Positions 7,501 through 40,158 of a DNA stretch of 40,158 nt are shown piece after piece. The first letter of the stretch is position 1, and every line of letters begins with the position of its first letter. Origin of the DNA: Chitinophaga pinensis (GTDB lineage Bacteria > Bacteroidota > Bacteroidia > Chitinophagales > Chitinophagaceae); contig CAMAXV010000020.1 in NCBI GenBank assembly GCA_945862385.1, positions 1-40,158 of the forward strand, written 5' to 3'. The notes below the pieces were generated by a model that saw only the letters and a list, made by a program, of their open reading frames with translations, was not told the origin of the DNA and searched no databases. A program made the position numbers and the translations under genes.

Positions 7501-7984
7501 AATCACCAGTTATAACTTTTTCTGTCTGTACCCTTTTCCCTGCTGATTCATGAATGGTTATGAAATAAAATGCTTTATCGGCATAAAAATTCTTTACAAA
7601 AACAAACTTGCCAGACAGGCTGTCCCATATCCATTGATCTGTTCCGGGGGCATAAAAGAGAAAATAATCAGAACCGGAGAATTGTCCGTCACCACCATCT
7701 TCCATCCAGATAGCCAGCTCAGACAGGTCATCCGGAGCGGGAACAGCATTGGATTCCGGCAAAACCCTGCCCCCATTACCATACAACCTGATTTTACCTG
7801 ATGGCACATTATCTAAGCCCAGGGCTTTTAAATCGGCTGCATAAACACTGTATATACCTTTTGACGGAGCAGATACCTTAAGCCACAGACCGGAAGAAAG
7901 TACTGAGTGGTCTGCATAACGCATTTGTCCTGTTACGCCCAGGGCCAGTAAGACAAAAGACGCTAAGAGTTTACATTTCTTCAT
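4568..7984 (-). CDS. porU: Type IX secretion sortase PorU (C25 gingipain-like)
   Basis: PorU is the cell-surface transpeptidase that removes C-terminal sorting domains from type IX cargo and attaches the cargo to the surface. The protein has 1138 residues: a signal peptide, an N-terminal beta-rich region of about 380 residues, a peptidase C25 domain, Ig-like modules and a C-terminal sorting-type domain starting near VFPNPLQKQSVFSL. The catalytic pair is visible as His in NYSGHGGSS (about residue 643) and Cys in TATCDFAPFDDP (about residue 678). Other C25 signatures are AIGRIPARN and MLGDPAMKL. It is divergent from gldJ and followed by porV, a conserved neighbourhood in gliding Bacteroidota. 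Confidence 0.93.
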   Translation of the reverse strand: MKKCKLLASFVLLALGVTGQMRYADHSVLSSGLWLKVSAPSKGIYSVYAADLKALGLDNVPSGKIRLYGNGGRVLPESNAVPAPDDLSELAIWMEDGGDGQFSGSDYFLFYAPGTDQWIWDSLSGKFVFVKNFYADKAFYFITIHESAGKRVQTEKVITGDFKPVTSFDEQYRYELDSINFLKSGKEWYGEDFGNQTGRLADRTFTAARSGVVPGTSFLLTSEIAGRSADQPNRMAVAVNGKKLFEHTTAPLAGTLLEPSANTSRISTVGIAESGSLTVGYNFTGLSVNAQAWLNWFEVQYRRSLDMTGLTQLVFRDTASVAAGETAAFRISNPRSDASVWDVTDFSAALKIPVASQSNQLSFIRSVSSLRTYVVFSAAAASRVTVEGIAGNQDLHGLAPADMLIVTDPNLLQAAERLASFHRKQGLSVHIEIPGRIYNEFSAGIHDPTAIRNFVRMFYARSSQGTGKYPRFLLLFGGASYQYKGAVAANTNKVPSYQSDVSLDPLSTYVTDDYFGYLDTWEDIQAVQPAPVLDVAIGRIPARNLQQANRAVDKILRYHQPEALGSWRTGLTLVADDEDFNLHLYDAEYHAGMIDRDFPSWQVKKIYLDAFEQQSNAGGSSYPTANKNILDGVNKGTLIWNYSGHGGSSRLAQETIMDAATLAGWDNSTRLPLLVTATCDFAPFDDPDQFSLGEELLVGRNNGGIGLMTTTRLVFASSNKVINHNFLRYLLKKDSNGRYPALGEALRDSKNFTVSTSGDYVNARKFIMLGDPAMKLSIPEYTVKTTRVNDRLLSSADTLTALSTYTLEGVILDQSGKELSDFSGFVYPRLFDKPVVEKTKANDGQSFAVDYFAEGGILYTGKVAVANGKFRFTFTVPADADTRFGQVKLMYYADDGNRDAMGVDNHFVVGGRSAAPVKDEAGPGIRAYLDKETFKSGDRVSQTPLLLLKLTDASGFNISGNGIGHDLVAILDGDARSTMILNDFFVPEAAQPGFAGSVSIRMQELAEGKHKLYVRAWDVYNNAGETVIEFEVVKQRVINITSLKVFPNPLQKQSVFSLTMDGDTRDSKVVLAVFAGNGRLIWQQEKAINEANLRSLVIPWNESGKQDGSLPPGVYFCRVIVLNREGIKTSKTVKLIIL

Positions 7985-14738: not shown

Positions 14739-14895
14739 AGAGTTGAGAGATGAAAGTTTAGAGTTGAGGGAGAAAGCTAAACTCTCAACTTATCTCTCTC
14801 AACTTATCTCTCTCAACTCATCTCTCTCAACTCATCTCTCTCAACTCATCTCTCTCAACTTATCTCTCTCAACTCATCTCTCTCAACTTATCCCT
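14739..14895. repeat. 14-bp tandem repeat array (CAACTYATCTCTCT) with inverted copy
   Basis: Eight direct copies of a 14-bp unit of the form CAACTTATCTCTCT or CAACTCATCTCTCT run from about 14782 to 14892. Just before them, at 14739-14766, lie inverted copies (GAGTTGAGAGATGA and GAGTTGAGGGAG), so the whole stretch can fold back on itself. A small GC-rich palindrome (CCTGCCTCCGGCAGG) follows at about 14896. The copies vary by one T/C position. The same unit, in the opposite orientation, occurs at 34222-34265. Confidence 0.88.
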
Positions 14896-14939
14896 CCTGC
14901 CTCCGGCAGGCAAGCTCAACTATTCTCTATTTACTATCC

Positions 14940-16583
14940 TCAAAGAGACACCCCCCGCTTCCAGGGAATAAAGTCATCCTGATTCAGCTGAACAGCTTTG
15001 GGAATCACTTCCCCGCTGGCAGCACGGATGCAATATTCCAGGATCTCTTCACCCATCTCTTCGATGGTTTTGTCGCCTTCTACAATGGGACCGCAATCAA
15101 TATCAATGATATCTGCCATTTTACTTGCCAGCTTGGAATTAGTGGCGAGTTTGATGGTAGGACAAACAGGGTTACCGGTAGGTGTTCCCAGTCCTGTAGT
15201 AAACAATATCAATGTTGCCCCGGATGCAGCTTTGCCCGTGGTGGCTTCCACGTCATTGCCCGGCGTACAAACCAGACTGAGTCCGGGTTTTGTGGCGGGC
15301 TCAGTATAATCCAATACATCCACAACCGGACTCGTACCGCCTTTCTTACAGGCACCAGCACTCTTGATGGCGTCTGTAATCAATCCATCCCTGATATTTC
15401 CTGGTGACGGGTTCATGTGAAAACCTGAACCAACCTGTTCTGCCTGTGCACTGTAGGCATCCATCAATCGGATGAATTTCTCTGCCGTTGCCTGGCTTGT
15501 GCTTCTGTCGATCAGCTCCTGTTCTGCACCACACAATTCCGGGAATTCAGCCAGGAGAATTTTACCCTGAATGGCTACCAACAGGTCCGAAAAATACCCC
15601 ACTGCCGGGTTTGTGGAAATCCCGCTGAAACCGTCACTGCCACCACATTTCACACCTACTGTCAGCTTATCAAGTGTAGCAGGTTTTCTTTCCTGTTTAT
15701 TGATTTCTACGAGTCCTTTAAATGTTTCCCGAATTGCCGCCTGAATCAATTCCTCTTCTGTGCTGCCAGCCTGCTGTTCAAAGGTCAGGATAGGTTTATC
15801 AAAACTGGGGTTACGTTTGCGGATGGTTTCTACAAATGCATCCAGCTGCAGATGCTGACATCCCAAACTCAGGATGGTAATACCTCCCACATTCGGATGA
15901 TCGGCATAAGCGGCTAACAGGTTTTCTAAGATTGCTGAATCCTGACGCGTTCCGCCACAGCCTCCCTGGTGATTCAGGAATTTGATACCATCCACATTTC
16001 TAAAAACCCTAGTCACACGTCCCTTATCCCTTGTCCCTTGTCCCTCGTCCCTTGTCCCTCGTCCCTCTCCCATGTATTCCTCCACCAACCCCCTCGTAAA
16101 CGCCTTGTATTTCTCCGTCACCGCATAACCCAGTTCATTGTGCAGCGCTTCCCTAATCACATCCAGATTGCGGTTTTCACAAAAAACTGTTGGGATAAAC
16201 AACCAGTAATTGGCGGTACCAACCCTGCCATCGCTCCGGTGATAGCCCATAAAGGTCCTGTCTTTCCATTTTGACACATCAGGTGCTGTCCAGTTAAACT
16301 GAACATACCTGTAAGCATAAGGATCAGCAGCATGGTGCAAATTAGCGGTCGTCATCAGTCCGCCCCGTTTCACATCCATCGTCACTTTCCCAACCAGTAC
16401 ACCATACATGGTTACTGCACCCCCCTGTGGGATATCTTCAGTGTAAAACTTATGCTTGGCCTCCACTGGCTCAAGTATTTCATAAGATTGTCCCTCAAAT
16501 GCTATTCGCTCTCCAGCTTCGAGGTTTCGCAATGCAACAATCACATTATCCGCTGGATGTACCTTCAAAACTATATTCTTCAT
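14940..16583 (-). CDS. uxaA: UxaA family altronate dehydratase
   Basis: Altronate dehydratase converts D-altronate to 2-keto-3-deoxy-D-gluconate in galacturonate breakdown. The 547-residue product has both UxaA parts in one chain: an N-terminal SAF domain (about residues 1-95, VHPADNVIVALRNLEAGE) and the large catalytic domain with GYHRSDGRVGTANYWLFIP, LNHQGGCGGTRQDS, SLGCQHLQLD, VGVKCGGSDGFSGI and CPTIKLATNSKLA. The conserved cysteines expected for the iron site are present. About residues 170-189 (GEGRGTRDEGQGTRDKGR) are low-complexity and encoded by a heptamer array absent from normal family members. The ATG at 16583 follows a pair of direct repeats that could be an operator. It likely works with the KduD-like enzyme downstream. 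Confidence 0.88.
   Translation of the reverse strand: MKNIVLKVHPADNVIVALRNLEAGERIAFEGQSYEILEPVEAKHKFYTEDIPQGGAVTMYGVLVGKVTMDVKRGGLMTTANLHHAADPYAYRYVQFNWTAPDVSKWKDRTFMGYHRSDGRVGTANYWLFIPTVFCENRNLDVIREALHNELGYAVTEKYKAFTRGLVEEYMGEGRGTRDEGQGTRDKGRVTRVFRNVDGIKFLNHQGGCGGTRQDSAILENLLAAYADHPNVGGITILSLGCQHLQLDAFVETIRKRNPSFDKPILTFEQQAGSTEEELIQAAIRETFKGLVEINKQERKPATLDKLTVGVKCGGSDGFSGISTNPAVGYFSDLLVAIQGKILLAEFPELCGAEQELIDRSTSQATAEKFIRLMDAYSAQAEQVGSGFHMNPSPGNIRDGLITDAIKSAGACKKGGTSPVVDVLDYTEPATKPGLSLVCTPGNDVEATTGKAASGATLILFTTGLGTPTGNPVCPTIKLATNSKLASKMADIIDIDCGPIVEGDKTIEEMGEEILEYCIRAASGEVIPKAVQLNQDDFIPWKRGVSL
16018..16066. repeat. In-frame YGTCCCT heptamer array inside uxaA
   Basis: Seven consecutive heptamers, CGTCCCT, TATCCCT, TGTCCCT, TGTCCCT, CGTCCCT, TGTCCCT and CGTCCCT, lie within the uxaA coding region. 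Three heptamers equal seven codons, so the encoded peptide has a seven-residue period (GTRDEGQ, GTRDKGR). The reading frame stays open on both sides. Confidence 0.9.
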
Positions 16584-16831: not shown

Positions 16832-18082
16832 ATGAACAAAAACTTAGTCAGTGCGATTGCACTGTCGATGACATGTCTTGCTATGGCTTGTCAAAAATCA
16901 GTAATTCAGGAATTACCTGAAATCTCATCGTCTTCTTTAAACATTACGGGACAAAGTAACCTGACGCCAAAAGAACTTTTGGGTAAGATGATTTACTTTG
17001 ATGCCAATCTTTCTGAACCTGTAGGCAGACAAGCCTGTGCATCCTGTCATTTACCAGACAATGGATATTCAGGATTTGCAAGTCTTCCTTTAGTCGGACA
17101 ATTCTCCGGAGCAGTTGCAGGTATCGGTGAGGGTGCATTCCCGGGTCGATTTGGCAACAGAAGAGCCCCCAGTGCTGCATATGCTTCATTCAGTCCTACA
17201 TTCAAGATGATAGAAGACAATGAATTCAAAGGCGGACTATTCTGGGATGGAAGGGCAACAGGATTGCGATTGGGTATACCTGCTGCTGAACAGGCACTCG
17301 GACCATTTGTAAGTTATGCTGAACAGAACCACCCATCGCCCGTAGCAGTTCTCTACAAACTCAATTCACCTGAATATCAGGAATTGTGGCAGCAAGTTTG
17401 GGGTAGTCCGATTTCAACATCTAACCAACAGCAAATCGACCTCAATTATGATAGGGTTGGCTTGTCGATTGCAGCCTATGAAGCATCCAGGGAGGTGAAT
17501 CCATTTACCTCCAAATATGATGCCTACCTCAGGAAACAAACAGACCTTACCACGCAAGAAAAGGAGGGATTGGCTATTTTCAACAATGATGGAAAATGTT
17601 TCAGGTGTCACCTTTCTGAAGGCACTGCTGTAAATCCCCCTTTGTTCACCGATTTCCAATATTACAATCTTGGCATCCCCAAGAATCCACAAAATCCCTA
17701 CTACGCAGTTAATGCAGCTTTTGTTGACAAGGGATTGGGTGGATTTCTTCAAACCAGCACCAATGCTGCCTGGAGAAGTGCTGCCAAAAACAACATGGGT
17801 AAATTCAAAACCCCTACCCTGCGTAACATCGCCAAAGGAAACAACAAAAGATTCATGCACAATGGTGCTTTCACTTCGTTGGAGCAGGTCGTTGATTTCT
17901 ACAACACCCGTGATGACTCTAAATCTAGAGGCCGTTGGCCAAAGCCTGAATATGACGATAACCTGCAAAAAGGATGGTTGGGTAACCTTAAACTCACAGC
18001 TAAACAACAGGCGGCAGTTGTAGCATTCATGAAAACACTGAATGATGGCTGGAGCAATAACGCCTCAGCACCTGTCAACTAA
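16832..18082 (+). CDS. Di-haem cytochrome c peroxidase lipoprotein (MauG/CcpA family)
   Basis: The 416-residue product has a lipoprotein signal peptide with lipobox LAMAC (lipidated Cys20). It carries two c-type haem motifs, CASCH (Cys69-His73) and CFRCH (Cys256-His260), in the order and spacing of bacterial di-haem peroxidases, with family segments GKMIYFDANLS, NRRAPSAAYASFSP, GLFWDGRA, FKTPTLRNIAKGNNKRFMHNGAF and LEQVVDFYN. These enzymes reduce hydrogen peroxide with electrons from periplasmic donors, or, in MauG-like relatives, oxidise other targets. It is the only gene between uxaA (divergent) and the sugar cluster and has its own terminator. TAATTTCG at about 16731 is one base short of a -7 box. 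Confidence 0.9.
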   Translation: MNKNLVSAIALSMTCLAMACQKSVIQELPEISSSSLNITGQSNLTPKELLGKMIYFDANLSEPVGRQACASCHLPDNGYSGFASLPLVGQFSGAVAGIGEGAFPGRFGNRRAPSAAYASFSPTFKMIEDNEFKGGLFWDGRATGLRLGIPAAEQALGPFVSYAEQNHPSPVAVLYKLNSPEYQELWQQVWGSPISTSNQQQIDLNYDRVGLSIAAYEASREVNPFTSKYDAYLRKQTDLTTQEKEGLAIFNNDGKCFRCHLSEGTAVNPPLFTDFQYYNLGIPKNPQNPYYAVNAAFVDKGLGGFLQTSTNAAWRSAAKNNMGKFKTPTLRNIAKGNNKRFMHNGAFTSLEQVVDFYNTRDDSKSRGRWPKPEYDDNLQKGWLGNLKLTAKQQAAVVAFMKTLNDGWSNNASAPVN

Positions 18083-18173: not shown

Positions 18174-18354
18174 ACTCCCCTCCTGGACAGGAGGGGTGGC
18201 ACGAATGAGTCAGCACCGAAGGTGATGGCGAATGAGCTTGCCTGCCGCAGGCAGGTGACGGGGTGGTGGATGTTGAAATGTGATTCCACCACCCCGCCTC
18301 AACAAACTCACTTCGTTCATTTGTCTCGGCACCCCTCCTGTCCAGGAGGGGAGT
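18174..18354. repeat. Hairpin-ended dispersed repeat, copy 1 (MITE-like)
   Basis: A 181-bp element whose ends are a 25-bp perfect inverted repeat beginning ACTCCCCTCCTGGACAGG. Each end is itself a hairpin (CCCCTCCTG, two-base loop region, CAGGAGGGG). In the middle CGGGGTGGTGGA and TCCACCACCCCG form another stem, and TTGCCTGCCGCAGGCAG adds a small palindrome. It shares CCACCACCCCGCCTCAACAA and TCACTTCGTTCATTTGTCTC with copies at 26769 and 34366. It sits between the peroxidase gene and that gene's terminator. Confidence 0.85.
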
Positions 18355-18390
18355 TTCTTGCTTTTTATATCGCAATAGATTTAAAGCATA

Positions 18391-18424
18391 AAAAAGTCTG
18401 GCATTAGTGCCGGACTTTTTTTAT
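18391..18424 (+). terminator. Rho-independent terminator of the peroxidase gene
   Basis: The arms AAAAAGTCTGGCA and TGCCGGACTTTTT pair with one mismatch around a TTAG loop, followed by more T. It lies 309 bp after the peroxidase stop, on the far side of the inserted repeat. Confidence 0.85.
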
Positions 18425-26768: not shown

Positions 26769-26922
26769 AAATTCCCCTCCTGTCCAGGAGGGGTGGCCCA
26801 GACCGAGCGAAGCGAGCGTCCGGGACGGGGTGGTGGATTTTAAACCTGATTCCACCACCCCGCCTCAACAAATTCACTTCGTTCATTTGTCTCGGCACCC
26901 CTCCTGTCCAGGAGGGGAATTT
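26769..26922. repeat. Hairpin-ended dispersed repeat, copy 2 (MITE-like)
   Basis: A 154-bp element in the 297-bp gap between the two sugar operons. The ends AAATTCCCCTCCTG... and ...CAGGAGGGGAATTT are inverted repeats of 27 bp apart from the two-base centre of each hairpin. The middle stem CGGGGTGGTGGA / TCCACCACCCCG and the stretch TCACTTCGTTCATTTGTCTC match copy 1. The left interior differs (GAGCGAAGCGAGCGTC). Nothing else was found in this gap except the palindrome at 26995. Confidence 0.87.
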
Positions 26923-26994
26923 ATCGCGTTTTATTTGTAAAAACATATCGATTGACTGTACCAATTACATTGTTAAAATGCATATAAACTAAAC

Positions 26995-34365: not shown

Positions 34366-34591
34366 AAACCCTCCTGCCATGAGCGAAGCGAATGGATAGA
34401 GCCTGTCCGCCGTGGCGGAAGGGGCTCCGAGACTGCCAAAGGCAGGCGAGCCTGCCTGACGGTAGGCAGGTGAGGGGAGGTTGGAAATACAAAATAAATT
34501 CCACCACCCCGCCCTGTCTGCCGTCAGGCAGGCTCAACAAATTCACTTCGTTCATTTGTCTCGGCACCCCTCCTGCCCAGGAGGGGAATTT
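34366..34591. repeat. Hairpin-ended dispersed repeat, copy 3 (decayed)
   Basis: The right half (CCACCACCCCG, CTCAACAAATTCACTTCGTT, CATTTGTCTCGGCACCCC, hairpin CCCCTCCTG...CAGGAGGGG) matches copies 1 and 2 almost base for base. The left end retains only AAACCCTCCTGCC, and the interior has extra palindromes such as GTCCGCCGTGGCGGA and CTGCCGTCAGGCAG. It occupies most of the 748-bp non-coding stretch 34228-34975. Confidence 0.8.
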
Positions 34592-34688
34592 TAAATGGCA
34601 GTTGAACTTATTGCAAAGAAAAAATTAAGTACTTATAACTTTAAATATATTGTAAATGGACAGTTACCGTTTTCATCAATTTAACCCC

Positions 34689-34712
34689 AAAAAAAATGCC
34701 CCAAACGGGGCA
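34689..34712 (-). terminator. Displaced tRNA-Ser terminator
   Basis: The hairpin TGCCCC / GGGGCA with an AAAC loop is preceded on the plus strand by eight A, so on the minus strand it ends in a T run. It stands 9 bp beyond the 3'-end fragment of tRNA-Ser, exactly where the terminator of an intact minus-strand tRNA gene would be. Confidence 0.8.
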
Positions 34713-34720
34713 CCTGATTA

Positions 34721-34747
34721 CTGCGGAGACTGAGGGATTCGAACCCT
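34721..34747 (-). repeat. Distal attachment-like site: 27-bp copy of the tRNA-Ser 3' end
   Basis: The 27 bp from CTGCGGAGACTGAGGGATTC to GAACCCT are identical to 39991-40017, the T arm and 3' acceptor strand of the tRNA-Ser gene. The sequence after it bears no tRNA features, so it is not a functional tRNA gene. The orientation is the same as the intact gene. This is what remains of the native 3' end after integration of the segment between the two copies. Confidence 0.85.
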
Positions 34748-34975
34748 AGCCCACTTAGTATCGTAAAACATTGATTATCAACTATTCTTTTGCGCAATCA
34801 AGAACCACTCAAAGTTGCTAGTGTCTGAAAGTGCACACTTTCCGTTAGCTTGTATTAATATAGGATGTTTTTGAAAAAGAGAATTGGAGTAGGAGAAAAT
34901 AATTTACAAGCTGTAAAAGATTTTTATGCTTTCCCATTTCTCAAATGATATTCGTGCTTTTAATTGGATACAATA
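34748..34975. other. Non-coding left arm of the islet
   Basis: No gene is evident. It contains one exact short inverted repeat, GAAAGTG-CA-CACTTTC at 34827-34842, which could be an integrase arm or regulatory site. Otherwise nothing recognisable is seen. Confidence 0.4.
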
Positions 34976-35554
34976 TTAAACTTCCATTATATAATACTTC
35001 CATTGTACATTGTGTGCATCTTGAAAAGGTTTCCAGGTTTCGATATAGGTTTGGTTTAATGAAATGGCTCCTTTTTTCATTAGAAAATCTGGTAGGTCAG
35101 TTTTTTCAATTGAACTTATATTTACCTCTTCCCCATTGAATCTAAAATATATCCCTGAATCTGCTTGTGGGGCCAACCAAAATGATGACCTCTCCGTTAT
35201 AAGAATACAATAGCAAGATGTAAAACCACTCGAGCGAAGTTCTTCAGTAAACTTGATATCCTCTATAGCATGAAACATCTCCTTGGGTGCTCCACAATTT
35301 TCTCTTGGTACTTTTAATTCGATTAAATATTTACGACCTTCGTGGTCTGTTATATAAATATCCATTTCCTTTTTCCTAAATGGTTGTAGAGGCCTAAATA
35401 CACGTGTGATTGGATATTCAAGCCGTACACAATGATCTGGCAAAGCGTTGCGTAAATAAATCGCCAACTCATGCTGTAAACCTGCTTCATTGTATAATTC
35501 ATATCCATTTGAGTTGTTCTGTTCAAAAAATTGGTCTAATAATAATCTATTCAT
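34976..35554 (-). CDS. PD-(D/E)XK nuclease-like protein of unknown function
   Basis: The 192-residue product has an N-terminal helix with Glu (YNEAGLQHELAIYLRNALP), then RKKEMDIYITDHEGRKYLIE followed by LKVPR, giving the Asp...Glu-x-Lys core of restriction-endonuclease-like folds. After it come HAIEDIKFTEELRSSGF and CYCILITERSSFWL, the usual conserved helix and strand of such domains. No named family was recognised with certainty. It lacks a signal peptide. It shares strand with the ATPase gene 210 bp upstream of it in transcription order. A defence or nucleic-acid processing role is only a guess based on fold and island context. Confidence 0.65.
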   Translation of the reverse strand: MNRLLLDQFFEQNNSNGYELYNEAGLQHELAIYLRNALPDHCVRLEYPITRVFRPLQPFRKKEMDIYITDHEGRKYLIELKVPRENCGAPKEMFHAIEDIKFTEELRSSGFTSCYCILITERSSFWLAPQADSGIYFRFNGEEVNISSIEKTDLPDFLMKKGAISLNQTYIETWKPFQDAHNVQWKYYIMEV

Positions 35555-35764
35555 AATTATCTATTTGTTTTTCAAGGTTATTTTAATCAATATGATAAGA
35601 ATTACCGATTAATTTTGGCAAAATATATTTACAGATAAGTCAAGATAGATATTTTTGATACCGACTCAACACTAGCTCAAACTTTTATTTATAAACACTC
35701 AAAACCTGCTAAGCAATTTCAGCAATTACAGAAAACAAACTCTATTCCATACTAACAATCAATT

Positions 35765-37060
35765 TTATTCAATAAAAGTCCAGCATGCATATAACGGCAA
35801 ATTTACCAACCAATCATCTTTTCTGTAATCTGATAAGGAAGTGCGGATGCTCATTTCCGGACTAAACTTCTGATGATAAGATTTAAGACTTTTAGCTTTA
35901 AGATTTTCAGCAGCTTTCACTTCAATGGGAATAATGAGATTTTGGTATTGAATCAGAAAATCAATTTCTGCTGTGGCTTTTTCTGCCGACCAATAATAAA
36001 TGGGTAGCTGATCGATAGATTTCAGTTGCTGCAAAACATATTGCTCTGTCAATGCACCTTTAAATTCCTCAAAAAGAGACTGTTCACTGATTAAAGTATG
36101 TATATCGAGATTTCCCATTGCTGCCAGTAAACCTACGTCCAATATAAACAACTTAAAATCTGAAAGTACTGCATAAGCGATCAGTGGCATGCCAGGTTTA
36201 TTACACCTATTTACCTTATGAACAATACCCGCATTTGTAAGCCATTCAATCGCCAATTCAAATTCTCGGGCCCTAGCGCCTTTCTTTAAATTTCCATAGG
36301 TAAACTTTCTATTTTCCTTTGCCAGTTGTGAAGGAAGAGATTGCCATACGAGCCTTATTCTGGGAACAATCTCATTGGGTGCATGTTTTGAAAAATCCTG
36401 TTCATAAGATGACAGAATATTCAATTGTTTTTCCCTAACTTTTTTAAAATCCTTTTGATTGATAAAAGTTAACACCACTTCTGGCATTCCGCCCACATAA
36501 TAGTATTGCTTTAATAAATCAATGTATTTTGATTTAAAAGCAGTTACTAAACCCCAATCCTTTTTTTGCAATAAATCCAATAGCTGAGGCTCATTGACAG
36601 CCAACAAAAACTCTGAAAAACTCAAAGGATGTAAATCTAAAAAATCAACCTTCCCTACAGGAAAAGATCTCTTTTTATTAGAGGCAACTCCCAAAAGGGA
36701 ACCGGCAGCTACGATATGGTATTGATTTGCGTTCTCTTGAAAATATTTTAAAGAAGTAATGGCGGCCTCGCACTCTTGGATTTCATCTAGAATAACCAAG
36801 GTTTCACCAGGAACAATGTCGGCTCCTGTTTCAATTTTTAAAGCCAAGATCAGCTTTTCAACCTCAAAGCCACTTTCAAAAATATGATGAAGCGATAGTG
36901 CCGTTTCAAAATTCACATAGGCAACGTTTTTATAATGCGTTTTACCAAATTCCTTCATCAACCAAGTTTTGCCTACTTGCCTAGCGCCTCGGATAATTAG
37001 AGGCTTTCTATCCATTTTTTGTTTCCATTTAATTAATGTCTCGAGTAATCCCCTCTTCAT
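35765..37060 (-). CDS. AAA ATPase with DUF4143 domain
   Basis: A 431-residue ATP-binding protein of the type annotated AAA_14 plus DUF4143. Walker A is RGARQVGKTWL (about residues 24-34), Walker B is TLVILDEIQE, and an ATPase sensor-like segment YHIVAAGSLLGVA follows, then FPVGKVDFLDLHPLSFSEFL. The C-terminal DUF4143 part contains AEIDFLIQYQNLIIPIEVKA, an Asp...Glu-x-Lys nuclease-like core. These proteins are common on mobile or genomic-island DNA in many bacteria and archaea; their function is not known. The ATG at 37060 is the only fitting start. It is transcribed ahead of the nuclease-like gene. Confidence 0.88.
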   Translation of the reverse strand: MKRGLLETLIKWKQKMDRKPLIIRGARQVGKTWLMKEFGKTHYKNVAYVNFETALSLHHIFESGFEVEKLILALKIETGADIVPGETLVILDEIQECEAAITSLKYFQENANQYHIVAAGSLLGVASNKKRSFPVGKVDFLDLHPLSFSEFLLAVNEPQLLDLLQKKDWGLVTAFKSKYIDLLKQYYYVGGMPEVVLTFINQKDFKKVREKQLNILSSYEQDFSKHAPNEIVPRIRLVWQSLPSQLAKENRKFTYGNLKKGARAREFELAIEWLTNAGIVHKVNRCNKPGMPLIAYAVLSDFKLFILDVGLLAAMGNLDIHTLISEQSLFEEFKGALTEQYVLQQLKSIDQLPIYYWSAEKATAEIDFLIQYQNLIIPIEVKAAENLKAKSLKSYHQKFSPEMSIRTSLSDYRKDDWLVNLPLYACWTFIE

Positions 37061-37487
37061 ATCCTTAGTATTTTGTGTACCAAATTACACTTATTCGTTT
37101 GTTTTTGTGTATGTTGATGTCAAAATAAAAAATGAATATGGGCTTAATATTAGCTAATTGATTGATAATGAATTATTAAAATGAAGATTACTTTTGGACA
37201 ATTAAAAATAAATAATACACACAGAGACAAGATGTACCTCATGTGCCAGTAAAATATCCTTTATCGATTTTACTTAGCAAAGCGGATTTTAGGAATAAAA
37301 CTTGTGCTCAGAAGTTTAAAAAAAGCATCAAAATATGCATTTGTCTTTATTATAAAACACAAGAATTATCAATAGGGTTGGATACCGAAAGGAATAGAAA
37401 AAGGAAAATTATCAAAAAAAAAAAATCCTATTTCCACACAGGTGATCCTACTTGCGTATTTTTCAATTCAACTATGAGCATGGTAAT
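37061..37487. other. AT-rich non-coding stretch
   Basis: This stretch upstream of the ATPase gene is strongly AT-rich and includes a 12-base A run at about 37416. No convincing gene, RNA or repeat is seen; the one plus-strand open frame lacks any recognisable content. A promoter for the ATPase gene is expected in its left part. Confidence 0.4.
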
Positions 37488-37607
37488 ATGAAAAACAATG
37501 ATCTTGAATTAGTCGTTGCCAAATCGAATGTGGAAAGCTACCTTATGACTTTAAAAATCATTCATGATTATATTTCCAACAATGAACCTATCCCAGTAAT
37601 AACGTAA
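37488..37607 (+). pseudogene. Short ORF cut by the IS66 left end
   Basis: A 39-residue frame begins MKNNDLELVVAKSNVESYLM and ends IPVIT followed by TAA. That TAA is bases 2-4 of the IS66 inverted repeat GTAAGC, so the stop comes from the insertion. The continuation expected on the other side of the element (39858 onward) was not found. The family is not recognised. Confidence 0.4.
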
Positions 37608-37671
37608 GCCCCCGACCAATGCCATATTGTTGGGATGAGTTTGATTTAATTTCTTTGTGAAAAGGAATTTT

Positions 37672-37968
37672 ATGGGTTCAGATTCATCATTGGAGCATAT
37701 TAAAAGTTTGATTCGCAGCTGGGAGTTAAGCGGTTTATCGAAGTCGGCATTTTGCCGTGATCAGCAGATGTCATATCATAAATTTAATTACTGGCACAAA
37801 CGCATTGGTACACCTGTTCGGTCTGCTGCAGCGTTTGTTCCGGTAGAAGTAATTAATCCACGGACAGCATTAACTGAGCGAATAACTGTTAGAAGTAAAT
37901 CCGGAATGGAAGTATCCTTTCCTATGAACAAGGAATCGATTGATTTGATTCGTCAACTGCTTCAGTAA
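37672..37968 (+). CDS. tnpA: IS66 accessory protein TnpA
   Basis: A 98-residue helix-turn-helix-type accessory protein with the IS66 OrfA pattern (SLIRSWELSGLSKSAFCRDQ, then YHKFNYWHKRIG). The ATG at 37672 is preferred, though a GTG five codons upstream is also open. Its stop overlaps the ATG of tnpB by one base (TAATG), indicating coupled translation. Confidence 0.85.
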   Translation: MGSDSSLEHIKSLIRSWELSGLSKSAFCRDQQMSYHKFNYWHKRIGTPVRSAAAFVPVEVINPRTALTERITVRSKSGMEVSFPMNKESIDLIRQLLQ

Positions 37969-38342
37969 TGCTTCATTTACATCCGGAATCAAGGTATTAC
38001 TGGTTCCATGGGAAGACAGATTTTCGAAAAGGTTTTGATGGTCTATGCGGACTGGTTAGAGAACACATGGAGCGGGAAGTGACAGATGGTGGCCTGTTCA
38101 TTTTTGTGAATAGTCGGCGTAACCAGCTCAAACTACTTCATTGGGAAGGAGACGGGTTGGCTATGTATCACAAGAGATTGGAGAAAGGTATTTTTGAAGA
38201 GCCACAACGGAGTGTTGATGGTAGTTCAGTAGTGATTACTGCTGAAGAGTTACAATTAATTCTGCAGGGTATTGTGCTGAACTCTGTGGTCAAGCGCAAG
38301 CGATATGTTCATTACAACAGGTTATCCACAGTTGGAAAATGA
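37968..38342 (+). CDS. tnpB: IS66 accessory protein TnpB
   Basis: The 124-residue protein carries the IS66 Orf2 signature YYWFHGKTDFRKGFDGLCGL and continues with FVNSRRNQLKLLHWEGDGLA and KRLEKGIFEEP. This protein is required for IS66 transposition, but its exact role is unknown. It is translated by stop-start overlap with tnpA and has the normal length. Confidence 0.92.
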   Translation: MLHLHPESRYYWFHGKTDFRKGFDGLCGLVREHMEREVTDGGLFIFVNSRRNQLKLLHWEGDGLAMYHKRLEKGIFEEPQRSVDGSSVVITAEELQLILQGIVLNSVVKRKRYVHYNRLSTVGK

Positions 38343-38453
38343 TCCGAGTTTTTGCAAAAAGGTTATCCACTTTTTGGCTTTAAAAGTGGGTAATTAAATC
38401 AGTATTTTTACTTGTTACAATGCAGTGTGGATGAGACCTTTGAGCTATCAAAG

Positions 38454-39803
38454 ATGATTAGTGAAGCTCAATATAACGAAGTAATTAAAAGCAATCAGCA
38501 ACTCACTGAAATTGTAGCATCGCTTCAGAAAATCAATGCTGATTTGCAACTTCAACTTCAAAACTATCAGTTACAGATTCTTGAGTTGAAGCGTTTAATC
38601 TACGGCAGTAAATCAGAACGTTTCAAGTCGGAACAAACTGTTGGATCGGTTCCAACTCTTTTTGAGGTAGCTCCTCTTGCTGAAGAAGTGGTGGTGTCCA
38701 CAGAGCAGGTGAGTTATGAGCGAACAAAAAAAGAAACCCGTATCAATCATCCTGGCAGAAATGCCTTCCCTGAGCAGGTACAGGCAGCTGCCCCGGATCG
38801 TATCTTCAGCCGCAGCAGTGTGGATGAGAGTCTGGTGGCCAATGTGATTGTAGAGAAGTACGTGGATCATTTGCCGCTCTATCGTCAGGCTAAGCGTTAC
38901 GAGCGTCAGGGTGTGGTTATATCAGAGAGTACACTGGGAGACATCATCAGTTCCTGTTCAAAAGTACTTGAACCCTTGTATGAAGCTCACTACAAGGAGG
39001 TGTTGTCTTGCGGATACCTGAATGTAGACGAAACCACTATTAGGGTGCAAACCAGTGAAAAGAAAGGGGCTACCCATCAGGGATACTACTGGGTGTTATA
39101 TGATAACCTCAACCGAACGGTGTTATTTACCTATGATCCTACCAGAAAAAAGGAAACCCCTCAACGGTTATTGAAGGGATACCAAGGATATTTGCAGTGC
39201 GATGGTTTTTCGGGATACGACAACTTTGATGACGTAGACGGCATTACACTGGTGGGTTGTTTGGCGCATGCCAGAAGAAAGTTCCATGAGGCATCGAACA
39301 GTGATAAAACCAGAGCCAATGAAGCCTTGAAGAGATTCCAGGCTGTGTATGACATTGAAAGACAAATCAAGACCACCCAAATTAGTGGTGAAGAAAAGAA
39401 GCAATCCAGAATAGCACATGCGCTACCGTTACTTAAAGAACTAAAGTCCTGGATGGAAAAAACCTATCCGCAAGTATTACCATTGAGTGCTATGGGAAAG
39501 GCCATCAATTATAGTTTGAAGCGATGGGATAAGCTTTGCCTCTACGCCGAAACAGCTATCCTTGATCCGGACAATAACAAAGTCGAAAACAGCATCAGAC
39601 CTGTGGCCATAGGAAGAAAGAATTATTTGTTTGCAGGAAGTCATGAAGCAGCACAACGAGGCGCCATGATGTACAGCCTGTTGGGAACCTGCAAAGCACA
39701 TGGTATTGAACCATATGCCTGGCTCCAAGATATCTTGATCAAATTACCAGCACACCCCATCAACAGAATCAAAGAATTACTGCCGCAGTATTACTATAAA
39801 TAA
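38454..39803 (+). CDS. tnpC: IS66 transposase TnpC (lacks the zinc-finger region)
   Basis: A DDE transposase of 449 residues from ATG 38454 (MISEAQYNEVIKSNQQLTE); a TTG 14 codons upstream is open but unlikely. It begins with a leucine-rich coiled coil and LKRLIYGSKSERF. The DDE domain is intact with NVDETTIRVQ (Asp), LQCDGFSGYDNF (Asp) and NNKVENSIRPVAIGRKNYLF (Glu), plus the C-terminal LLGTCKAHGIEPYAWL. Between HPGRNAFPEQ and the VEKYVDHLPLYRQ core, where most IS66 transposases have about 55-60 residues of zinc-finger region, only some 20 are present (PDRIFSRSSVDES). This explains the short length relative to the usual 500 or more. Confidence 0.9.
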   Translation: MISEAQYNEVIKSNQQLTEIVASLQKINADLQLQLQNYQLQILELKRLIYGSKSERFKSEQTVGSVPTLFEVAPLAEEVVVSTEQVSYERTKKETRINHPGRNAFPEQVQAAAPDRIFSRSSVDESLVANVIVEKYVDHLPLYRQAKRYERQGVVISESTLGDIISSCSKVLEPLYEAHYKEVLSCGYLNVDETTIRVQTSEKKGATHQGYYWVLYDNLNRTVLFTYDPTRKKETPQRLLKGYQGYLQCDGFSGYDNFDDVDGITLVGCLAHARRKFHEASNSDKTRANEALKRFQAVYDIERQIKTTQISGEEKKQSRIAHALPLLKELKSWMEKTYPQVLPLSAMGKAINYSLKRWDKLCLYAETAILDPDNNKVENSIRPVAIGRKNYLFAGSHEAAQRGAMMYSLLGTCKAHGIEPYAWLQDILIKLPAHPINRIKELLPQYYYK

Positions 39804-39926
39804 TCTCCTTACACAATCTTTACCACATCAGCAACATGGTATCGGTCGGATGCTTACGAAATTAGCCTATTCTTGGTCTCTGATTTTACCCAAAAACCCT
39901 GCTTTTGTCTGCTTCGCCTTGCATCA

Positions 39927-39976
39927 ATAAAAAATGCAAAGCATTGACAATGTTGAAGTTGCAATGTTTTGCATTT
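39927..39976 (-). terminator. Terminator downstream of tRNA-Ser (islet-derived)
   Basis: On the minus strand AAATGCAAAACATTG (15 bp) pairs, with one mismatch, with CAATGCTTTGCATTT and is followed by a T run and ATT. It lies just past the 3' end of the tRNA gene, on the islet side of the direct repeat, so it replaces the displaced native terminator at 34689. Confidence 0.7.
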
Positions 39977-39990
39977 CTTTGCAAGATATT

Positions 39991-40017
39991 CTGCGGAGAC
40001 TGAGGGATTCGAACCCT
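39991..40017 (-). repeat. Proximal attachment-like site in tRNA-Ser
   Basis: This 27-bp sequence is identical to 34721-34747. It covers the T arm and 3' acceptor strand of the intact tRNA-Ser gene and three bases beyond (CAG on the minus strand). Confidence 0.85.
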
Positions 40018-40081
40018 CGATACCCTTTAGAGGTATACACACTTTCCAGGCGTGCTCCTTCAACCACTCGGACAAGTCTCC
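39994..40081 (-). tRNA. tRNA-Ser (anticodon GGA)
   Basis: The minus strand folds as a class II tRNA of 88 nt: acceptor GGAGACT / AGTCTCC, D arm TCCGAGTGGTTGAAGGA, anticodon stem CACGC / GTGTG with loop CTGGAAA (anticodon GGA, reading UCC and UCU), a long variable arm TATACCTCTAAAGGGTATC, T arm GAGGG TTCGAAT CCCTC, and discriminator G. CCA is not encoded, as is usual in Bacteroidota. Confidence 0.95.
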
Positions 40082-40094
40082 TTTTGAAGGAGTG

Positions 40095-40102
40095 CAAAAA
40101 TA
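40095..40102 (-). promoter_or_regulatory. Candidate -7 box for tRNA-Ser
   Basis: The minus strand reads TATTTTTG, matching TAnnTTTG, 13 bp ahead of the mature 5' end. No clear -33 box is present in the remaining sequence before the window edge. Confidence 0.45.
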
Positions 40103-40158
40103 ATCTTATTCAGTCAGAAGCGGAAGATTTTTTTGGCATTTTGCGTCGTTATTTCATC

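Follow-up and report, generated by a model that had tools for sequence, protein, structure and literature searches.

Near one end of a contig of Chitinophaga pinensis (assembly GCA_945862385.1, contig CAMAXV010000020.1), two copies of the 3' end of a tRNA-Ser(GGA) gene enclose a short islet that carries no integrase, which raises the questions of how it was integrated and what became of the enzyme responsible. The window analyzed is the whole stretch of 40,158 nucleotides and constitutes the entire contig (C20). In genomic islands of the Islander class, as outlined in PMC4383910, the target lies in the T-stem or 3' end of a tRNA or tmRNA gene, the tRNA is restored, a displaced 3' fragment marks the far end, and an integrase gene is required. 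The islet shares with this class the tRNA 3'-end target, the restored tRNA, and the displaced fragment; unlike members of the class it has no integrase, so that Islander as outlined there would miss it (PMC4383910). It is an ordinary decayed genomic island of a known class, and the general mechanism is textbook. A tyrosine integrase is found inside related elements in two other genomes of the genus (G010 and G016) and not in the window, and because none lies inside the islet we class it as a decayed derivative and not as an active island.

Boundaries of the islet at tRNA-Ser(GGA)

The islet is bounded by a 27-bp core that is identical at positions 39991 to 40017 (attR) and at positions 34721 to 34747 (attL), where it forms a displaced fragment of the tRNA-Ser 3' end; repeat comparison thus bears out the perfect repeat claimed in an earlier sequence-only reading of this DNA. 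The displaced copy lies 5.27 kb from the intact tRNA-Ser(GGA) gene, which is encoded on the minus strand at positions 39993 to 40081 according to ARAGORN (39994 to 40081 according to Rfam), and it is both identical to and co-oriented with the intact tRNA, as expected of a genomic island. With up to 3 mismatches allowed, a 25-nt core of the repeat occurs twice in the window, where 100 shuffles gave an expectation of none, and positions 34640 to 34760, when compared with the complete genome, matched at two places only, both of them islet ends. The 27-bp copy is therefore not widespread in the genome, a result that would have spoken against the islet. The tRNA-Ser(GGA) gene is the integration target, and its 3' end has been restored by the islet's own copy.

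The window ends 77 bp beyond the tRNA gene, at the end of the contig, and positions 40010 to 40158 are identical to positions 1 to 149 of contig C19, an exact 149-bp overlap that leaves the assembly broken at tRNA-Ser. Because 149 bases are also shared by three other pairs of contig ends (40 ends from 20 contigs), the break looks like a join in the assembly graph, and the idea that it reflects a mixed population containing excised islets was rejected. A left branch would fall between positions 40009 and 40010, where the T-loop has a base that is conserved in tRNAs, and for that reason the branch was not counted as evidence of excision. Past the overlap, C19 carries genes that, to judge by their sequences, encode TatD-like, polysaccharide-deacetylase-like, and EngB-like proteins. 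The same gene order was found in G010 (first two genes) and G016 (all three). With the tRNA lying at a contig end, the probable right junction of the islet rests on the 149-bp overlap and on this gene order.

On the far side, the displaced copy is directly followed on the minus strand by a hairpin with a T run (positions 34686 to 34715, with the stem at 34715 to 34694), which confirms the terminator described there previously and is likely to be the native tRNA-Ser terminator, displaced by the islet. Its GCCCC start lies 11 nt past the displaced copy in the window and 14 nt past the displaced copy in G010, and it lies 12 nt after the intact tRNA-Ser(GGA) in G052, G054, and G048. These last three genomes, which represent other species of the genus and not strains, have the GCCCC-loop-GGGGC hairpin directly after a complete tRNA-Ser(GGA), as the sequence-only reading had predicted for an empty site. 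In G004, the same hairpin lies beside the 3' part of a tRNA-Ser that is cut by a contig end.

The sequence of the hairpin alone is not diagnostic. A search with the TatD-like protein encoded to the right of the tRNA gave a match in 32 of the 41 genus genomes (the genome of the window included), and tRNA-Ser(GGA) stood beside the TatD-like gene in 18 of the 30 loci that were read; three of these 18 had the GCCCC hairpin, two (G010 and G016) had the att arm described below, nine had another hairpin, and four had no strong hairpin. A GCCCC..GGGGC hairpin is also found after tRNA-Ser(TGA) in G001, G011, G050, G010, and G048, and in G005 one follows a diverged tRNA-Ser(GGA). Given the tRNA-Ser(TGA) hairpins in five members of the genus and the 13 of 18 loci with another hairpin or none, the terminator argument taken alone is weaker than had been supposed.

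The att arm and integrase-bearing elements at the same tRNA

Alignment with G010 and G016 defined an islet-side att arm at positions 39858 to 39990, which contains imperfect TGCAAAA/TTTGCA repeats that are partly kept in G184 as well. In G010 and G016 this arm separates tRNA-Ser from the integrase gene. It is identical to the G010 arm at 127 of 133 positions (95.5%) and to the G016 arm at 105 of 127, whereas the TatD-like gene, just past the other end of the tRNA, is identical between the islet genome and G010 at only 510 of 753 positions (67.7%). Descent would hardly produce such a contrast, which is in keeping with a mobile element common to both genomes. The arm also accounts for the different hairpin that had been noted beside the intact tRNA gene: the hairpin is real (arms at 39929 to 39946 and 39962 to 39979) and belongs to the islet's att arm, as seen from the alignment with G010, so that its interpretation as a replacement tRNA terminator was rejected.

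The element in G010 (Loclat_bin-19464, contig CAIXLY010000026.1, C26) has the same layout as the islet, occupying the same tRNA (tRNA-Ser at 18332 to 18419 of locus L034), with the same displaced terminator next to a displaced tRNA fragment (the two together at 7836 to 7887 of L034) and the nearly identical att arm. It differs in its length of 10.5 kb, in a displaced fragment that matches over 17 nt only, in its intact integrase, and in its cargo, which includes FkbM methyltransferase, CotH, VTC, DUF4956, and DUF2490 proteins; its GC content is 34.5%. The tyrosine recombinase gene adjoins tRNA-Ser on the strand of the tRNA, and its product contains Arm-DNA-bind_5, Phage_int_SAM_5, and Phage_integrase domains. 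The integrase query comprised 404 residues (the listed frame, read from a TTG, has 429), and the match begins 225 bp from the tRNA 3' end. G016 (Chitinophagaceae bacterium Jr-14may18-175) has the same tRNA, the arm, and an integrase that is 74% identical, cut by a contig end.

At an E value of 1e-40, the integrase was found in two of the 41 genus genomes, G010 and G016, both with the arm alongside, and a search of genome contigs with the integrase alignment recovered the same two loci. The alignment had no match among viral contigs, and the 94 phage records that matched the integrase were all below 60% identity. More distant relatives gave 49 matching places in 396 genomes of the order, of which 28 loci were examined; in 25 of them a tRNA or tmRNA gene lies 204 to 341 bp before the matched integrase start on the same strand (Ser in 14, Phe in 5, tmRNA in 4, Asp in 1, and Met in 1), and the other three have none. 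The closest of these integrases (G184, 49% identity) is at a tRNA-Ser(GGA).

Together with the empty sites, the related integrase-bearing element at the same tRNA supports the earlier claim that the layout is one left by integration into a tRNA 3' end. The sequence-only reading had seen no recombinase in the islet, and indeed the window holds no integrase remnant detectable by tblastn with the G010 integrase (best E value, 6.7); it had left the manner of integration open, for which the 95.5% identity of the att arm now suggests a G010-type tyrosine recombinase as the likely answer. Among the three PF00589 proteins that the host encodes, the match to the G010 integrase extends at most over 240 aa, at 31.7% identity, and the islet is therefore probably fixed in its host.

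The arm is not confined to elements with an integrase. A search with the tRNA and the islet end covered the genome of the window and 39 relatives, including 24 members of the genus, and matches running well into the arm were found in three of the 39 (G010, G016, and G006); an exact 41-base arm pattern was absent from the viral contigs searched. In G006 the copy is a 91-column match at 81% identity followed by 8 core bases (L187 4151 to 4239, contig C229), and it is flanked by tRNA-Leu and a membrane-protein-like gene; the contig, 4.65 kb long, has neither a tRNA-Ser nor a match to the integrase. The tRNA-Ser(GGA) of G006 is at another place and is unoccupied. The G006 copy, which may be a scar or may stem from a secondary integration, shows that the integrase beside an arm can be lost or dispensed with.

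Cargo genes and the IS66 element

The cargo is as it had been described from the sequence: a PD-(D/E)XK-like protein, a DUF4143 ATPase, and IS66. The ATPase gene (positions 35765 to 37060, minus strand) encodes AAA_14 and DUF4143 domains by Pfam and agrees with PDC-S01 of PADLOC, a candidate defense gene, in being a single-gene candidate of this domain composition; the profile match is full length, covering residues 1 to 428 of 431 (PADLOC E value, 9.4e-184). The second gene (positions 34976 to 35554, minus strand) encodes an orphan PD-(D/E)XK nuclease-like protein of 192 aa, in which E63, D65, E79, and K81 are invariant in an alignment of six sequences. An AlphaFold model built from the six sequences had a pLDDT of 74 and a pTM of 0.74, and structure comparison returned mostly nucleases with weak scores. 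The protein was found in none of the other genomes among the 41 of the genus, in 3 of 396 genomes in an order-level search, and in 4 of 395 genomes in a phylum-level alignment search, the host genome included in each of the latter two counts, and it had no match in phages, plasmids, or viral contigs. Five loci encoding homologs, viewed by eye over up to 1.5 kb on each side, contained no DUF4143-like gene. A defense role for the cargo is a guess from family name and context. Without IS66, the GC content of the islet is 33.4%, versus 46.8% for positions 1 to 32700.

The IS66-family element occupies positions 37603 to 39857 on the plus strand and looks complete, with tnpA (37657 to 37968), tnpB (37968 to 38342), and tnpC (38412 to 39803) and terminal inverted repeats at both ends. 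Its right end abuts the att arm where the integrase should begin; the point in G010 that is homologous to this border lies 90 bp before the integrase match and 15 bp before the longest listed frame. IS66 elements normally make an 8-bp target duplication. The islet copy agrees with the family in its three genes and terminal repeats and is unlike it in having no flanking duplication, the flanks AGTAATAA and AAATTAGC being different, which bears on the history of this copy and not on its family membership. Given this mismatch, the copy probably marks a rearrangement, the simplest being a deletion in which the integrase was lost. No other full copy exists in the genome, and in the genus the DNA of IS66 was otherwise matched by one 138-bp piece, at the end of a contig in G011, so that there is no control for the duplication; the DNA of IS66 had no match in plasmids. 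An open frame of 39 codons (37488 to 37604 plus the stop, to position 37607, plus strand) runs into the left end of IS66 and may be what is left of a cargo gene that the element interrupted; it had no relative in family searches or in plasmids. Contig C27 of the same genome has an isolated palindrome of about 39 bp (L075 1501 to 1540), made up of a pair of IS66-like terminal repeats without an intervening transposase; it may be a MITE-like remnant.

History of the islet and alternative origins

The islet is probably the fixed remainder of an element that was integrated by a G010-type tyrosine recombinase and later lost its integrase in association with IS66. A mobile element encoding such a recombinase would have integrated at the T-arm and 3' end of tRNA-Ser(GGA), its attP copy of the tRNA 3' end restoring the gene and pushing the old 3' end with its terminator to the far side. 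IS66 would later have come to lie at the former position of the integrase, and an IS-associated deletion would have removed the integrase and perhaps also part of the cargo, leaving a fixed islet with the candidate defense ATPase and the orphan PD-(D/E)XK-like protein. An IS66 copy without matching flanks is as expected if such a deletion removed the integrase. As no integrase or fragment of one remains, the former presence of the enzyme is suggested by 133 bp of arm; in this way an islet that lacks an integrase gene can be linked to the enzyme that probably integrated it. Counting against this history are the arm copy in G006, the fact that none of the genomes searched was found to have the islet's cargo beside an integrase, the frequency of GCCCC..GGGGC terminators near tRNA-Ser genes of the genus, and the position of the tRNA at the end of a contig. 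The history would put into a mobile setting both PDC-S01, a very common but largely untested defense candidate, and a nuclease-like orphan protein that is rare.

It is unlikely, though worth weighing, that the islet never had an integrase and was instead a satellite with an att arm and core, integrated in trans by a recombinase of the G010 kind and joined by IS66 by chance. Both ends have been kept in the absence of an integrase, and so has the arm, which is 95.5% identical to that of G010; the arm copy in G006 likewise has no integrase. The position of IS66, where integrases of this family begin, and its mismatched flanks nevertheless fit a loss better; the host has no closely related integrase among its three PF00589 proteins; and the G006 copy, about 81% identical and with no second core seen on its short contig, may be a scar. 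A more specific form, in which the islet is a two-gene defense satellite that is moved in trans by G010-type recombinases, would explain a well-kept core and arm in a host without such an enzyme as well as the arm copy in G006, and we regard it as quite improbable.

That the islet is a minor part of one larger island, reaching from about 16.6 kb to the tRNA, is highly improbable, even with a homolog of positions 14940 to 16583 directly beside tRNA-Ser in G021, G024, G015, and G012 and, in G051, a homolog of positions 16853 to 18058 within 1.5 kb of tRNA-Ser. The window has no further core copy at up to 3 mismatches, the GC content of 49% from 16.7 to 32.75 kb is unlike the 33% of the islet, and the boundary in G010 lies at the terminator and tRNA fragment. 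An ordinary rearrangement that duplicated part of the tRNA region could also yield a 27-bp copy with a hairpin, without any site-specific integration. tRNA fragments can arise by duplication, and terminators of the GCCCC..GGGGC kind are common in the genus; however, this origin is barely credible for an islet of foreign composition for which empty sites exist in relatives and whose end shares 95.5% identity with the att arm of a different species' integrase-bearing element, one that occupies the same tRNA and has its parts in matching order.

Outside the islet, the stretch from 16.7 to 34.7 kb is extra relative to G021, G024, G015, and G012 and contains a PDDEXK_2 fragment and an IS3-like element besides a block of genes at 49% GC. 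Three copies of an intergenic palindromic repeat, CACCACCCCGCC ... CACCCCTCCTGTCCAGGAGGGG, occur in the window (18249 to 18368, 26815 to 26934, and 34464 to 34603), and contig C8 of this genome has a weaker match. Positions 14768 to 14921 are occupied by an array of 14-bp units, CTCTCAACTTATCT.
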